From positions 1-64,000 of IMG/VR virus record IMGVR_UViG_3300031857_000069: a stretch of DNA of 64,000 nt. One strand, written 5' to 3'. The position numbers and the translations under genes are program-made. Shown piece after piece: positions 17,585 to 51,919 of this stretch. The number at the start of each line of letters is the position of its first letter. Within the stretch, counting starts at the first letter, position 1. The notes under the pieces were generated by a model. It searched no databases, was not told where the DNA came from, and was given only the letters and a program-made list of their open reading frames with translations. Source of the DNA: a virus.

Positions 17585-20500
17585 ATGGGTCTGAATAAAC
17601 TTGACAATTTTATCAAGAATACAGAAGGTCGTATTCTTTACGTCAATCCAAATGATCTTGATTCAACTGATAGTATTGAGAATCAAGGTAATTCTCTTGC
17701 TCGCCCTTTCAAAACAATACAAAGAGCATTATTAGAAGCGGCAAGATTCTCATATATTGCTGGAGATAATAATGATTTAGTAGAAAAAACCACAATTTTA
17801 CTATTTCCCGGTGAGCATTTAATTGATAATAGACCTGGATATGCAGTTTATAATAACAGTGGAGCAAAAGCAGTCAATCGATCTGGTGGTCAAGATACTG
17901 CTACAAATGTTTTTTCACTTGGATTAAATTCAAACTTTGATCTTGCACAAGAAGATAATATTCTTTATAAGTTTAATAGTTGGTATGGTGGTGTTGTTGT
18001 TCCAAGAGGAACTTCTATTGTTGGTCTTGATTTAAGAAAGACCAAAATTCGTCCAAAATATGTTCCAAATCCAACAGATGATACTGTATCTAAATCTGCA
18101 ATTTTTAGAATTACTGGTGCTTGTTATTTTTGGCAATTTTCTATTTTTGATGCAGATGCAAGTAGCACGGTATATACAAATCCAGATGATTTTTCATCAA
18201 TCTATCGCTCAACACCTAATTTTTCACACCATAAAGTAACTTGTTTTGAATTTTGTGATGGTGTAAATAATATTACATTGCCTATTGGTGGTGCTGGTGG
18301 AACTGCAACAGGTCTCACCGATCTTGATATGTATTATAGCAAAGTCTCAAATGCTTATAATGCATATCGTGAAATTAAAGCAGAAGATAAATATCCAACG
18401 AATCCTCTTGGTTTTGCAAAGAGAGATCCAGAGTTTCAAATTGTCGGTGCTTTTGCTTCAGATCCAATTACAATTGCTTCAATATTTTCTGGTAATGGCA
18501 GTGTTGCAGACGCACGTGTTACAGTTACAACCACAACAGAGCATGGTTTAAACGTAGGTACTCCAATTAAAGTTAAAGGAGTTGGTGTAGGGGTTTATAA
18601 TGTTTCAACAACTGTTCAATCTGTTTTAAGTTCAACATCATTTACTTACCTTCTTTCAACAGTTCCTACAATTCCAAGTCCAAGTGCTGCCGGAGCGACA
18701 GTAACAGTTGAGACTGATACTGTATCTGGCGCATCCCCTTACATTTTTAACTGTTCATTACGCTCTGTCTGGGGTATGAATGGTCTTCATGCTGATGGTA
18801 GCAAAGCATCAGGATTTAGAAGCACCGTTGTTGCACAATTTACTGCAGTATCTCTTCAAAAGGATGATCGTGCCTTTGCAAAATATAATAAATCTTCTAG
18901 ATCTTATGAAAAAATTGATTACACTACTGTTTCTGGTGGAGATCTTCCAAATGGAGCATCTCAAACAGATACAAATAGAGTTTATCATTTAGATCCAGAC
19001 GCTATCTATCGTCAAGGATGGGAAACAAGTCATATTAAAATTACAAATGATGCTTTCATTCAAATTGTTTCTGTATTTGCAATTGGATTTAATAAGCATT
19101 TTGATGCAGAAACTGGTGGTGATGCATCAATTACAAACTCAAACTCAAACTTTGGTCAAATTTCATTAAATTCTTCTGGATTTAAAAAAGAAGCATTTGA
19201 TAAGGATAATAAAGCTTTTATTACCTCTATAGTCACACCAAGATCAGTTTCTTCTGTTGAAGATAACATTGAGTGGTTATCTTTAAACGTAGGACTTACA
19301 ACTCAAGTTGGTATCTCAAGTCACCTTTATCTTTTTGGATTTAACTCAATTAATGTTGCCCCATCATCTCTTACACAAGGATATCGAATCGGTGCAAAAT
19401 TAAATGATAAGTTATACGTTCCTTTGGGAACTGGAACTAGTGAAGCAAATATTTACATGTGTAATAATGCAATTAGTTCTTCTGGACTTACAACTGCATT
19501 AGGAACAACAAGTTCTGTTAAATTTTATGATGCAACCACTACACCTCCAACTGGATTTACGACATCATTTACAATTGGATCTAACAATCTGTTAACGGGT
19601 GAAAAGATCATAATCATAAGTGATGATGGAGATTTGCCAGAAAATATTGATCCTCATCAAATTTACTATGCAATTAATCCTGGAGATAATAATACAGTAA
19701 AACTTGCAGCATCGTATACAAATGCTCTTCAAAACAAACCAATTCAAGTTGTAGGTGGTACAAATCTTCACATTTTAAGTAGAGTTTCTGACAGGGAATC
19801 TGGAGAACTTGGATCACCTATTCAATTTGATAGTCAAAATAATAACTGGTTTATTCACGTTAATCAAAACAATGAAATTTATAATGCATTGAGTATTGGT
19901 GGAACGATAACTTTTGGTCCAACAACAGATCTTGCTTATGTGAAGCGTATTTCTGATGAAAGAAGTTTAGACGAAAAAATTTATAAGTTGAGAGTTGTTA
20001 TTCCAAAAGAATTTGCAAACGCAAAAGATCCAGAAACGGGATTTATTCTTCAAGAATCCAGCACTACAGGTGTTAGAACTGACACTGATTTTACAAGAAC
20101 TAGCATTGCAAGCACTGATTATGCATATTTAAAAAATCCAAGATTGATTGCATCTTGTTCAGAAAGTTCAAATGTAGTTACGGTATTAACTGAACTTCCA
20201 CATAATGTTCAAGTTGGTGAAGTAGTAACAATTAGAAATGTTAAAAGTTCAACAAATTCTACGGGAAGATTTGATTCTGGATACAATGGTAGATTCATTG
20301 TATCTAATATTATTGATGCATATACCTTTAGATATACAACAACAAATACAATTACGGGCGTAACACAATCTGCTGGAACATTTACAGATACAACATCAAC
20401 TAGAGATCAAAATCTACCAAGATTTGAAAGGAATGATTGGCAAAGTAATTTATTTGTTTACAGAAATGAAATTATTTCTCCATATATTTTCAATCAACAA

Positions 20501-24608: not shown

Positions 24609-26066
24609 ATGAAAAAATTTATTGTTTTGGGGGCAGGAACCTCTGGATTGATTGCAGCATCAATGATTAAAAAATATTGGGGAGATAAAGTTCAAGTTTC
24701 TCTATATTTTGATGCCAAAAGAAAAAATATAGGTGTTGGTGAAAGTACTACACCAATTATTCATTTATTCCTTAATTCTCTGGGAATAAAAACTGAAGAT
24801 TTAATTAGAGACTTAAATGTAAGTGTAAAATTAGGAATAAATTTTAAAAATTGGATTCCCAATACAGAATATTTTCATGGATTTAAAGAAGTTTCTTTTT
24901 GGGGGGAGTCGGATCAATCAAGTGCAATCTATTCTATTCTAAACGATTGCTATAATGGTGGTCTACTTTATAATGAAGCAACATCTACATTACCAAAAAA
25001 AACTTTTGATTATAGTCATGCGCTGCACATTGATACACAAGAATTTTCAAATTATATTTTTGGAAAGATGAATAACGAGATTGATTTTATTGATGATATT
25101 GCTGAAAAAATTAATATTGAAAATAATCAAATTGAAAGTATAGATTTCAAAAATAGTGGAAATGTAAAAGCAGATTTTTATATTGATGCCTCTGGATTTA
25201 ACTCTATGTTAATTAAAAACTTAAAGGTAAAGTGGAATGACATTACAGATTATTTGCCAATTGACAGAGCAATTCCACAACAAATTCCATATGATTTTGA
25301 AGAAGTGCCATCTTACACGTTAGCAGAAGCGACAGATAATGGATGGATATGGCAGATACCAATTGGAAATCGATATGGAACTGGATATCTTTATTCTTCC
25401 AGATTTACTTCAGATGAAGAAGCAAAAACAAAATATAATTGTTGGCTATTAGAAAAATTTGGAGTTAGATTGCAAACAGACAAAATTATTTACTATAAAC
25501 CTGGATATTATGATCAAGCATGGGTTGGAAATTGTTTAGCAATTGGTCTTTCAAGTGGATTTGTAGAACCGCTAGAGTCTACTGGTATTCACATTATCAT
25601 AAATCAAATTAAAGATTTTATTTCTTTAAATTCAAATTTAACCTTCTTGGAATATAATAGAAAAAAATTTAATGAAATAAACCTAAATGCTTATAAAGTC
25701 ATCGTGGATTTTATTTGTCTTCATTATAATACAAATAGATTTGATTCTGACTTTTGGAAATACATGACTGAAAATAAAACTGAATGGGTCAGAGATTTTG
25801 AGGAAAAATGTAAGTACGAGTTTTTAGATGCTAAAAATCTAGGCAATAATTCAACCAAATTTGTTTGGTCACTTGATAATTTTATTCAAGTTTCAAACGG
25901 ATTAAATATGTTTGATAAAAATGCAATTCGAGATTTCTTAAATTCAAAAAGAAATAAACAACAGATTTTAGAATTTGCAAAAGAACATTATGAATATACG
26001 AAAATTAAAAAATTAGAAAATCAAAGAATATCACATAAAGAAATTATAAACGCCATTCATAAATAA
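24609..26066 (+). CDS. Flavin-dependent (tryptophan-type) halogenase
   Basis: 485 aa. FAD-binding LGAGTSGLIAA at residues 7-17 and GVGESTTP at 42-49. Lys74 in VSVKLGINFKNW aligns with the catalytic Lys of PrnA/RebH. The flavin-dependent halogenase signature GWIWQIPIG begins at 245, and GFVEPLESTGIHII begins at 317. All key residues are present, so it should be active. It is related in type to the viral halogenase VirX1 described from cyanophage Syn10, which prefers iodide. Its place between fibre genes suggests virion-surface or host metabolite modification, which is inference. Confidence 0.88.
   Translation: MKKFIVLGAGTSGLIAASMIKKYWGDKVQVSLYFDAKRKNIGVGESTTPIIHLFLNSLGIKTEDLIRDLNVSVKLGINFKNWIPNTEYFHGFKEVSFWGESDQSSAIYSILNDCYNGGLLYNEATSTLPKKTFDYSHALHIDTQEFSNYIFGKMNNEIDFIDDIAEKINIENNQIESIDFKNSGNVKADFYIDASGFNSMLIKNLKVKWNDITDYLPIDRAIPQQIPYDFEEVPSYTLAEATDNGWIWQIPIGNRYGTGYLYSSRFTSDEEAKTKYNCWLLEKFGVRLQTDKIIYYKPGYYDQAWVGNCLAIGLSSGFVEPLESTGIHIIINQIKDFISLNSNLTFLEYNRKKFNEINLNAYKVIVDFICLHYNTNRFDSDFWKYMTENKTEWVRDFEEKCKYEFLDAKNLGNNSTKFVWSLDNFIQVSNGLNMFDKNAIRDFLNSKRNKQQILEFAKEHYEYTKIKKLENQRISHKEIINAIHK
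26058..26065 (+). promoter_or_regulatory. Candidate late promoter CATAAATA
   Basis: CATAAATA overlaps the halogenase stop and lies 19 nt before the glycine-rich adhesin gene. One mismatch to TATAAATA. Confidence 0.4.
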
Positions 26067-32648: not shown

Positions 32649-32852
32649 ATGAAATCCTATCAAGAGTTTATAGCAGAAGAAGAAAAGTCTTCTAAGGAAA
32701 CAGCAAAATATCAAAATCATCCGAAGGGCAATGAGAAGTGCTCCAATTGTAATATGTGGAGACCACCGAATGCCTGTACCGCAGTAAAAGGAAAGATTGC
32801 TGCCGATGGTTGGTGCAAGTGGCATCAGTATGATAGAAAAAACAAAGATTGA
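32649..32852 (+). CDS. Capsid-targeted small Cys protein (HiPIP-like)
   Basis: 67 aa. The start MKSYQEFIAEEEKSS nearly matches the T4 internal-protein capsid-targeting sequence (MKTYQEFIAEA), with IAE-E as a possible gp21 protease cut. The body CSNCNMWRPPNACTAVKGKI...GWCKWH resembles the four-Cys pattern of high-potential iron-sulfur proteins. It would be packed in the head and injected. Metal and function are inferred. Confidence 0.6.
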   Translation: MKSYQEFIAEEEKSSKETAKYQNHPKGNEKCSNCNMWRPPNACTAVKGKIAADGWCKWHQYDRKNKD

Positions 32853-49842: not shown

Positions 49843-50736
49843 ATGCAAAACCTTCACATTGAGCATCCTGAAGACACCATTCTGAATGGTGATCTGAATG
49901 TGCTGGATTGGTTCACTGCTGCAGGCACATTGTCTCTGAAGATTGATGGTGCTCCTGCGATTGTATGGGGAACCAATCCTGCTAATGGTCAATTCTTTGT
50001 TGGCACCAAAGCGGTTTTCAACAAGGTAAAGATTCGCATTGCACATTCTCATGAAGAGATTGATCAATTCTATGAAGGCAATGTGGCAAACATTTTGCAT
50101 GAGTGTTTTGATGTTCTGCCACGTACCGAAGATATTATTCAAGGTGATTTCATTGGTTTTGGTGGAGACACTGAATACACTCCTAATACCATCACTTATC
50201 AGTTTCCTGATGTCATCACACACAAGGTGATTCTTGCTCCTCATACTCGTTATGAGGCAAATGATGATCTGCGTGACAGTTGGGCAATTCCACTTACAGT
50301 TAATCTGAACAGCACTGATGAAGTGTTGTTTGTGAAACCCAAAGCATATATTCAACACAATCAGATCTCTTTTGCTGATGTGGAAGAAATCTGTGACTTT
50401 GCCCGTCAAATGTCTACTACTTGCACCTTTGTGTCTGGTAAACAACTGACTGAATTGAAGAAAGCGATCAATGCGTGTATTCGGGAACAGCGTAAGATTG
50501 AGGATGATGCATTTGATTGTGATGCCAATCTGATTCGCCTGTGGAAGTTGGTCAAATCCATCAAGGAAGATTGTCTGTTCCTGTGTCGCAATGATGGCCC
50601 TGCTGCTTATATTGGATATGATCGGATTGATGCCGAAGGTTATGTAATGTCCAATGAGTATGGCACTTATAAACTGGTCAACAGAGAGTTCTTCAGTCAT
50701 GCGAACTTCACGATGCAAAAGGCATGGTCTAAATAA
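49843..50736 (+). CDS. Ligase-like nucleotidyltransferase (DUF6267-type)
   Basis: 297 aa. LNVLDWFTAAGTLSLKIDGA holds a KxDGxP motif (KIDGAPAIVWG) typical of motif I of DNA/RNA ligases and capping enzymes, where Lys takes AMP or GMP. FFVGTKAVFNK and IIQGDFIGFGG could be motifs III and IIIa/IV. The family (DUF6267) is found in marine T4-like phages. Whether it seals nucleic acids is unknown. It precedes three capsid-targeted genes. Confidence 0.62.
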   Translation: MQNLHIEHPEDTILNGDLNVLDWFTAAGTLSLKIDGAPAIVWGTNPANGQFFVGTKAVFNKVKIRIAHSHEEIDQFYEGNVANILHECFDVLPRTEDIIQGDFIGFGGDTEYTPNTITYQFPDVITHKVILAPHTRYEANDDLRDSWAIPLTVNLNSTDEVLFVKPKAYIQHNQISFADVEEICDFARQMSTTCTFVSGKQLTELKKAINACIREQRKIEDDAFDCDANLIRLWKLVKSIKEDCLFLCRNDGPAAYIGYDRIDAEGYVMSNEYGTYKLVNREFFSHANFTMQKAWSK

Positions 50737-50745
50737 AAATAAAAC

Positions 50746-50952
50746 ATGAAAACCTTTGCACAATTTCTGGAAGCAGTGGGTGATCCAATTAAACCAGCAC
50801 AGGTGATCTCACTCAAAGATCCAGAAGTTCAAAGAAATCTCAGAAGTGCCATGAGACAACCAACTCAAGCACCAAAACCAACAAAAGATCCAGATCGTGT
50901 GAGACAATTCATTCAAAGAATGAGAATCAACACGATGCTCTCACCACTGTAG
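50746..50952 (+). CDS. Capsid-targeted small internal protein
   Basis: 68 aa. The start MKTFAQFLEAVG has the layout of the T4 capsid-targeting sequence (MKTYQEFIAEA), with FLE-A as a likely prohead protease cut. The remainder is basic and Pro/Gln-rich and ends with RQFIQRMRINTML. It is probably packed with DNA in the head. Confidence 0.62.
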   Translation: MKTFAQFLEAVGDPIKPAQVISLKDPEVQRNLRSAMRQPTQAPKPTKDPDRVRQFIQRMRINTMLSPL

Positions 50953-50956
50953 AATC

Positions 50957-51250
50957 ATGAAGACATTTTCACAGTTCATGTCCGAAAGCGGTGGATCTCC
51001 GTATCAACCTTATAAACCAGCACCACAACCTGAACCATCAACACCACCACCAGGTTGGAAGGAAAGGTATCTGGAACCATTAAAGAAACCACCAGTTAAG
51101 TTAGCAAAAGCAGTTAAGGAAGATATTAACAAACTAAAACAGTATCAAACTGAACGTCAACAACGACGCAGAACACCAGCAGAAAAGAGAGCAGATCCAG
51201 ATCTAGCAAAACTGACTTATATGCTGAATCAAGATCGTCCTGGAAGATAA
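50957..51250 (+). CDS. Capsid-targeted basic internal protein
   Basis: 97 aa. MKTFSQFMSESGG matches the capsid-targeting pattern. A Pro-rich stretch and a highly basic part (LKQYQTERQQRRRTPAEKRA) suggest DNA contact inside the capsid, like T4 IPI-III. It starts 4 nt after the previous gene. Confidence 0.62.
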   Translation: MKTFSQFMSESGGSPYQPYKPAPQPEPSTPPPGWKERYLEPLKKPPVKLAKAVKEDINKLKQYQTERQQRRRTPAEKRADPDLAKLTYMLNQDRPGR

Positions 51251-51253
51251 ATA
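51246..51253 (+). promoter_or_regulatory. Candidate late promoter GATAAATA
   Basis: GATAAATA overlaps the previous stop and lies 15 nt before the 51269 start. Late timing would suit a packaged head protein. Confidence 0.42.
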
Positions 51254-51268
51254 ATTTTTAAAAGAGTC

Positions 51269-51919
51269 ATGAAGACATTTTCTGAATTTATTGCAGAAGC
51301 AAGAAGAATGAGAGTTCTTCGCACAGCACATTATACTTCTGCTTCAAATAAGGAAAATATCCTCAAAACTGGATTCCAGGACTCACCATCCACTGGAACC
51401 TATCATCCTGATGAACGAAAAGGAGTTGTTTATACTACTCCATCATCCAGAGTTGGTTCTGATTATGGTGGATCAAGAGTGAATCTAAGAGTTGTCAATC
51501 CAAGAATGACAAACACAGATTCACCAAGAGATTTTGGTAAAAACATCAAACGTTGGATGGCATCAGCATCTGATGAAGATATTGCTGATAAGAAAGGTAA
51601 ACCAACCAGTTCTGTTGATCAGGCAAAAGCAGCATTCAAACAAGGTGCTAAAGTAGTTAGAGTTCCAAATGCACATGGAGGATTTACTCCAAGACCAGGA
51701 CAGGCACAAGGATCTTATGTGATGATGGATAAGGATGTTGCAAATAAGTCTATTGTAACCAATCCTCAACCAACAATTCGAGCAAAAGGTAAAGAAAGAA
51801 GAACACAAACTCGCATGTCAGGATCTCTTTCAAATACAAACTCTAGAACCAACTCAACATCATACACTCCTGGAGCAGGTGGAAGATTTGGAATTGCAGG
51901 AGTTGGACTGGCAGACTGA
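51269..51919 (+). CDS. Capsid-targeted ADP-ribosyltransferase-like protein
   Basis: 216 aa. The N-terminus MKTFSEFIAEARRM is close to the T4 internal protein/Alt signal, with IAE-A as the cut site. The body RTAHYTSASNKENILKTGFQ, GVVYTTPSSRVGSDYGGSRV and VNLRVVNPRM follows the order of ADP-ribosyltransferase folds (H-Y, strand, TTPS, YGG). T4 Alt is also a packaged ADP-ribosyltransferase that modifies host RNA polymerase. Residues for catalysis are inferred, not certain. Confidence 0.55.
   Translation: MKTFSEFIAEARRMRVLRTAHYTSASNKENILKTGFQDSPSTGTYHPDERKGVVYTTPSSRVGSDYGGSRVNLRVVNPRMTNTDSPRDFGKNIKRWMASASDEDIADKKGKPTSSVDQAKAAFKQGAKVVRVPNAHGGFTPRPGQAQGSYVMMDKDVANKSIVTNPQPTIRAKGKERRTQTRMSGSLSNTNSRTNSTSYTPGAGGRFGIAGVGLAD

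Follow-up and report, generated by a model that had tools for sequence, protein, structure and literature searches.

Three neighbouring genes of a T4-like cyanophage encode unrelated proteins with T4-type capsid-targeting sequences, probably an exchangeable set of internal head proteins

In a cyanophage, proteins with unrelated cargo share a tag of the T4 capsid-targeting type. This is supported by three neighbouring genes (P1, P2 and P3, Table 1) found within positions 1-64,000 of the IMG/VR virus record IMGVR_UViG_3300031857_000069. This stretch of 64,000 nt is called the window in the following; the whole source record (G000) comprises 96,136 bases. We consider it quite probable that P1 to P3 are internal head proteins, i.e. 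exchangeable cargo which would be packaged into the head by means of its tag and injected with the DNA. The tags, the protease gene of a related record, promoter-like boxes, a fold prediction, a gene slot and signs of cargo exchange are read from sequence, whereas the function of the tag in T4 and the occurrence of one tagged protein in cyanophage virions are taken from the literature.

We infer the following course for P1 to P3, from late expression through packaging, cleavage and injection to their function. The first 9 or 10 residues would serve for capsid targeting in the manner of T4 IPII and IPIII. The proteins would be made late from TAAATA-type promoters, the aromatic residues 4 and 7 of the tag would dock them on the prohead core, and the gp21 protease would remove the tag after the Glu at position 9 or 10. 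The basic mature parts would remain in the DNA, together with which they would reach the next host cell. The three genes themselves would represent an exchangeable cargo island behind a gene encoding a DUF6267 protein.

Table 1. Positions of the tagged genes and neighbouring features in the window
Feature	Position	Strand	Description
DUF6267/phrog_455 gene	49843..50736	+	PF19782 E 7.5e-79, phrog_455 E 2.9e-120
CTAAATA box	50729..50735	+	10 bases upstream of P1; coincides in part with the Lys-stop end of the DUF6267 gene
P1	50746..50952	+	68 aa, start MKTFAQFLEA, tag = codons 1-9 (50746-50772)
P2	50957..51250	+	97 aa, start MKTFSQFMSES, tag = codons 1-10 (50957-50986)
Late-promoter-like box GATAAATA	51246..51253	+	15 bases before P3, overlaps the P2 stop codon
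P3	51269..51919	+	216 aa, start MKTFSEFIAEA, tag = codons 1-10 (51269-51298)
Fourth tagged ORF	32649..32852	+	67 aa, HiPIP-like, start MKSYQEFIAEEEK

The three reading frames carry the coordinates and N-termini claimed for them in an earlier note on this DNA. The likeness to the T4 internal-protein signal drawn there was confirmed as well, MKTYQEFIAEA being read in NC_000866 at the starts of both ORFs which we take to be the genes of IPIII and IPII. The tag M-K-[ST]-[FY]-x-[EQ]-F is present in P1, P2, P3 and the ORF at 32649. The DNA pattern ATGAARACNTTYNNNSARTTY, corresponding to MKTFx[EQ]F, had three matches in the window, all at P1 to P3, and none in 100 dinucleotide shuffles of the window (chance expectation 0.00). 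A looser tag pattern gave four matches compared to 0.02 expected, the additional start being the one at 32649. After the predicted cuts the mature proteins would have a pI of 11.3 (P1), 10.0 (P2) and 10.6 (P3). A fifth tagged ORF, starting with MKSFKEFLSES, lies beyond the window at base 94015 of the source record (L174). It encodes a conserved tagged protein of 104 aa and is located two genes ahead of that for the large terminase subunit (the terminase being recognized by eye); its homologue in Synechococcus phage S-SRM01 is tagged, too.

The assignment to a cyanophage, already made in the earlier note, was upheld by a related record, IMGVR_UViG_3300031951_000015 (174,667 bases), in which P1 to P3 are identical and the same five tagged ORFs occur. 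This record contains a gene for the gp21 prohead protease (PF03420, E 2e-37) as well as two genes for photosystem reaction centres (PF00124, E 4.5e-90 and 7.7e-75), and its gp23 shows 91% identity to that of S-SRM01; the next-best gp23 matches, a marine single-cell virus and P-SSM2, reach 77%. From these genes we conclude that the source is a T4-like cyanophage. PF03420 had no match on the 96,136-base source fragment itself. The window also contains a tryptophan-halogenase-like gene at 24609-26066 (phrog_2928, E 1.1e-96), which is called prnA in some cyanophages.

A search for N-terminal tags, suggested in the earlier note as a check, yielded at least 120 stretches in viral contigs compared to 8 in the whole collection for a control with the same codons in permuted order. 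Together with the shuffles of the window, this control rules out a chance origin of the tags. Among the matches listed, 103 of 120 loci contained at least one homologue (E <= 1e-10) of an ORF from S-SM1, a T4-like cyanophage, and 29 of the 120 loci contained two or more tagged ORFs. Pooling of the tag scan, the relatives of P3 and our own record gave 140 loci with 177 distinct tagged proteins. By a coverage rule, the 174 proteins of at least 50 aa were grouped into at least 66 cargo clusters; a first grouping by single linkage (55 clusters, the largest with 61 proteins) was replaced because the clusters chained. The mature parts of P1, P2 and P3 fell into three separate clusters and are hence unrelated, as had been proposed. 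We considered a TQPKKK-like C-terminal tail as a second signal and rejected it; it was present in 6 of the 174 proteins, which by eye belong without exception to the P3 family.

The cargo of these clusters appears diverse and in part enzyme-like. For 70 tagged proteins (one per cluster and four more) a Pfam search returned 18 families with E <= 0.01, of which some were marginal. Thereby, glucosaminidase was found in two members and DUF6267, DUF5661, DUF6321, a SAM lyase family, DPBB, GNAT, HiPIP and PARP/ART-PolyVal in one member each. PHROGs matches (25 of 48 listed) included an internal head protein (phrog_2667, four members), a cytidyltransferase and endolysin families. The cargo was strongly basic, with a cluster median pI of 9.8 compared to 6.1 for untagged ORFs. 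A pI of at least 9 was reached by 53 of 66 cargo clusters and by 250 of 907 untagged ORFs, the latter being mechanical ORFs of at least 100 aa in the tag-scan loci and therefore including some false ORFs. In six contigs (L137, L135, L009, L139, L057 and L087) tagged genes of the ADP-ribosyltransferase-fold and GNAT types lay close together, the GNAT assignment being made by Pfam in L137 only. A DUF5661-like protein of this phage lineage carries no tag (L179:14247-16046, minus strand); similar proteins elsewhere are tagged (L069, by eye).

In T-even phages it is established that unrelated cargo proteins share the tag. The internal proteins IPI, IPII and IPIII of T4 resemble P1 to P3 in the N-terminal tag of 10 residues with aromatic residues at positions 4 and 7 and, in IPII and IPIII, a Glu at position 10; they, too, are small basic cargo of a phage with a gp21 protease. 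In the IPIII tag, residues 4 and 7 serve targeting and residues 8 and 10 processing (available text of PMC9026906). T4 Ip1-3 have only the leader in common and inhibit GmrSD type IV restriction enzymes after injection (available text of PMC12373910). Different from T4 are the other phage family, the enzyme-like cargo, the exchange slot behind the DUF6267 gene and a class of tags with Glu at position 9. We found no report of capsid-targeting tags in cyanophages in the literature searched, which covered few subscription papers.

The prohead protease of T4 cuts according to the rule [I/L]-x-E, of which the cleavage after Glu was confirmed. The claim of likely protease sites in all three proteins stood in part: at residues 8-10 P3 (I-A-E/A), like the ORF at 32649 (I-A-E), fits this rule and P2 (M-S-E/S) is near-canonical, whereas the site of P1 (F-L-E/A, residues 7-9) falls outside it. 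The scan pattern of the collection fixes Glu-10 and Ala-11 and is therefore silent on the conservation of the site, so that searches with partial residues were used instead. For these we fixed residue 7 and some of residues 1-4 (residue 3 being free in S-SRM01 and restricted in all other records), and ORFs shorter than 45 aa were dropped. In five cyanophage records 18 of 19 such ORFs had a Glu at position 9 or 10 (G000 5/5, P-SSM2 2/2, S-SM2 1/1, S-RSM4 1/1, S-SRM01 9/10). In T4 this applied to three of four ORFs, IPI having no Glu there, and in the pelagiphage HTVC008M to none of three ORFs of at least 45 aa. The pattern had no match in Syn9, whose MKKF-type tag it missed, and in S-PM2 no match of at least 45 aa. 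A 54-aa ORF at base 19110 of NC_000866 (minus strand, L159) starts with MKTFKEFIKED, with Asp instead of Ala at position 11, and is possibly an overlooked tagged protein of T4.

The departure of the P1 and P2 sites from [I/L]xE might mean that only P3 is processed cargo and that the tags of P1 and P2 have decayed or that both proteins are packaged uncut. Asp at position 10 of the T4 tag stops cutting and leaves targeting intact (available text of PMC9026906), therefore packaging without cutting would be possible. On the other hand, the Glu-9 form is common in S-SRM01 (five tags, or six counting one with Glu at both positions) and E9 is retained in the relatives of P1 (L134 and L130). Furthermore, relatives of P2 use the same Glu-Asp junction as the end of the tag and inside the protein. 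We regard this possibility, a variant of our reading that is compatible with it, as somewhat unlikely.

P3 provides a prediction of what such cargo may be. Its AlphaFold2 model (mean pLDDT 73.5; between 70 and 93 for the 10-residue blocks of residues 11-170) has a predicted ADP-ribosyltransferase fold at residues ~15-163 and a disordered basic tail from ~179. The best 50 rows of a VIA-align comparison were all ADP-ribosyltransferase-fold chains by title (best Z 8.8, rmsd 2.6, 101 residues), 19 of them at Z >= 8.0, below which matches may be trivial. Foldseek gave a best E of 4e-5 in a viral library, PARP-like entries being among the best, and placed ADP-ribosyltransferase structures at the top in the PDB (best E 0.01, none below 0.001). 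When P3 was aligned with 16 relatives, F7, E10 and A11 of the tag were invariant and M1-F4 nearly so; outside the tag H21, I31, G35, V54, A158 and P168 were invariant. The residues H21 (17/17) and Y55 (16/17; a second Tyr, Y66, 12/17) are presumably the motif 1 His and the motif 2 Tyr of the His-Tyr class (PARP/diphtheria-toxin/RES), as judged from family knowledge and the fold match. Outside the tag none of the Glu residues was invariant among the 17 sequences, and by our reading the expected place of motif 3 holds Ser, so P3 may be inactive as an enzyme. Because the third catalytic position seems to be other than Glu we name P3, on the basis of the fold matches, an ADP-ribosyltransferase-fold protein and make no claim of activity.

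Sequence comparisons of P3 itself returned little. No Pfam family matched at E <= 1 and membership in the PARP family was rejected, while the fold assignment was retained. One relative (L081) matched PARP (PF00644) with E 3.9e-4 and 20.4 bits, below the cut-off of 26.7, and ART-PolyVal as well. We dismissed phrog_3966 (E 0.099, residues 1-15 only) and judged two sequence-profile matches in the PDB (E 0.14 and 0.31) to be chance. Against 50,697 phage records, from which the nearest were possibly excluded, the DNA of P3 had no match and the protein ten weak ones in Vibrio phages (best E 0.1), mostly annotated as capsid proteins. In bacterial and archaeal genome contigs the P3 alignment gave 102 stretches with one short peptide pattern and no relatives.

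The fold recalls T4 Alt, a head-packaged ADP-ribosyltransferase, to which P3 would be similar in fold and, apparently, in packaging. Alt is made with a propeptide and belongs to the Arg-Ser-Glu class of ADP-ribosyltransferases. P3 would differ from this description of Alt, given here as general background, by its IP-type tag and by motifs which we take to be of the His-Tyr class. Since its cargo is a domain of this predicted fold, P3 would most likely serve to modify a protein of the host or of a defence system, or NAD+, ahead of phage gene expression. That P1 to P3 act at once on the host, as had been proposed from their tags, gains strength from this predicted fold only. For P1 and P2, a role as small proteins of counter-defence or associated with DNA seems most likely. 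Matches of P1 to DUF1641 (E 0.45) and of P2 to phrog_24981 (E 0.46) were dismissed. The proteins DarA and Hdf of phage P1 are injected head-associated defence proteins, comparable in their delivery with the DNA and different in the mechanism of targeting, again according to general knowledge.

The product of the fourth tagged ORF matched the HiPIP family (PF01355, E 4.1e-5, 24.2 bits compared to a cut-off of 22). All 80 relatives kept of 85 in viral contigs had a tag-like start with Glu at position 10, and a relative with 88% identity is encoded by the cultured phage S-SRM01. No late-promoter box was found within 60 bases of the 80 relatives. It would be unusual for cyanophages to package an iron-sulfur protein in the head.

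The gene of P1 starts 9 bases past the stop of the DUF6267 gene, homologues of which were found in 9 of 10 records searched, including our own; T4 has none. The predicted structure of the DUF6267 protein (pLDDT 85.8) had DNA and RNA ligases as top PDB rows in Foldseek (best E 0.053), and K33-x-D35-G36 was invariant in 11 aligned sequences. From fold and K-x-D-G motif only, the protein is predicted to be ligase-like. In one locus (L028) the DUF6267 protein itself is tagged.

Among the 18 loci containing relatives of P3, 12 have a DUF6267 homologue upstream, a count that includes apparent copies of one virus (L123/L124; L131/L132), and there the first tagged ORF follows after ~9-222 bases; some of the remaining six loci end close by at contig ends. 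In Syn9 a tagged cytidyltransferase (gp184) starts with MKKFSAFLSEAERS 1 base after the DUF6267 homologue. In S-SM1 the cytidyltransferase SSM1_190, labelled T4-GC190 in the record, starts with MKKFSAFLNEAERS and overlaps the homologue by 14 bases. Both have the tag MKKFSAFL[SN]EAERS and, like our island, a place at the end of the DUF6267 homologue, whereas their cargo is unrelated to P1-P3; a match to this cytidyltransferase was found neither in G000 nor in the related record of 174,667 bases. The DUF6267 homologue of S-SRM01 (74% identical) is followed by the tagged gp165, by gp166, in which we found no tag, and by the tagged gp167 and gp168, which represent other cargo. Comparing Syn9, S-SM1, S-SRM01 and the source, we therefore see one slot whose tagged cargo differs between phages. 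In the flanks read for P-SSM2, S-SM2, S-PM2 and HTVC008M there was no tagged ORF behind DUF6267; P-SSM2 and S-SM2 have a tagged cytidyltransferase at another place.

Several joins between cargo modules were detected. P2 consists of a Pro-rich module and a C-terminal module, the junction being Glu-Asp, and in L125, L126, L135 and S-SRM01 gp165 the tag is fused straight to a P2-type C-terminal module at the same Glu-Asp. A tagged protein of 419 residues (L131:3047-4303) contains the P3 domain as its second half, preceded by an internal tag remnant (RSFLLFITEAKRR) in which the site I-T-E/A is kept. The P3 of L135 is joined to a second cargo, relatives of which are tagged. A further difference among close relatives is an untagged gene located between P2 and P3. 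Such joins are the pattern that would be expected from recombination of cargo genes at the tags.

The basic cargo and the shortness of P1 and P2 would also suit proteins which are targeted to the prohead core and act there, in scaffolding, DNA condensation or head size, instead of in the next host. Cyanophages are described as being without gp67 and gp68 (available text of PMC2984593), so that other core proteins may replace these. A role in the core is at odds with the enzyme-like cargo (ADP-ribosyltransferase fold, GNAT, glucosaminidase, DPBB, cytidyltransferase), with cargo content differing among close relatives, and with the action of T4 Ip1-3 after injection described above. It seems to us distinctly unlikely, and we prefer to see P1-P3 as injected cargo.

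The expected late expression of P1-P3 is consistent with the boxes in front of P1 and P3, which overlap stop codons and therefore may partly be coding. According to the available text of PMC2984593, the cyanophage late promoter is NATAAATA. In a first test, ATAAATA anywhere in 60 bases preceded 33 of 141 tagged and 182 of 1217 untagged ORFs (P 0.014). It was outdone by a shifted control word, TAAATAA, which separated the two sets better (39/141 and 102/1217), and CTAAATA was therefore chosen post hoc. At 8-32 bases upstream CTAAATA was found for 36 of 141 tagged compared to 24 of 1220 untagged ORFs; since it was picked after inspection of the data, its P-value is exploratory. For [CA]TAAATA at the same distance the values were 66/141 and 138/1220, and a further word, AAATAAT, was enriched, too (12/141 and 34/1220). 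Counted per cargo cluster with at least one member, CTAAATA occurred in 20 and [CA]TAAATA in 27 of 66.

Leaders are alike (CTAAATA, A-rich, ATG) before some unrelated cargo, in 20 of 66 clusters, therefore the common stretch could be a recombination joint. That the N-terminal motif is just such a hot spot, or a signal for translation or assembly, with head packaging playing no part, is nevertheless highly improbable, as its conserved positions are those of T4 targeting and processing, the basic pI of the remaining protein would stay unexplained, and a tagged homologue has been reported in virions. The latter is T4-GC190, a putative cytidylyltransferase, which was detected in purified S-SM1 virions according to a main-text sentence of Sullivan et al. 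2010 (PMC3037559), whose available text makes no mention of N-terminal cleavage. It is the one virion report that we found, and it concerns another protein of the slot than P1-P3. In the available text of the S-SRM01 paper we found no virion proteomics, and the term 'mass spectrometry' is absent from it.

Going beyond P1-P3, T4-like cyanophages might share a modular delivery cassette consisting of TAAATA box, A-rich leader and tag, which recombines onto new coding sequences and has an exchange site behind the ligase-like DUF6267 gene. Each phage would then own a set of head-packaged effectors, including ADP-ribosyltransferase-fold proteins of the PARP/diphtheria-toxin type and acetyltransferases, which meet the cell before phage genes are read; some cargo would be tandem polyproteins cut at internal tag remnants. 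We put this forward as a tentative idea, plausible though falling a little short of even chances.

Cyanophages shape the photosynthesis of ocean and lake, and to our knowledge there is little insight into the means by which cells are disarmed within the first minutes. The tag offers a route, based on sequence only, to list the proteins which a T4-like phage probably injects; two scans of viral contigs gave the at least 66 cargo clusters described. Many cyanophage genes now called 'hypothetical' would thereby become candidate effectors of anti-defence or take-over, and the tag suggests a shared delivery system that can be tested on cultured phages such as S-SRM01, Syn9 and S-SM1. If an ADP-ribosyltransferase of the PARP/diphtheria-toxin type is among the cargo, the idea realized in T4 Alt would occur a second time, apparently independently.
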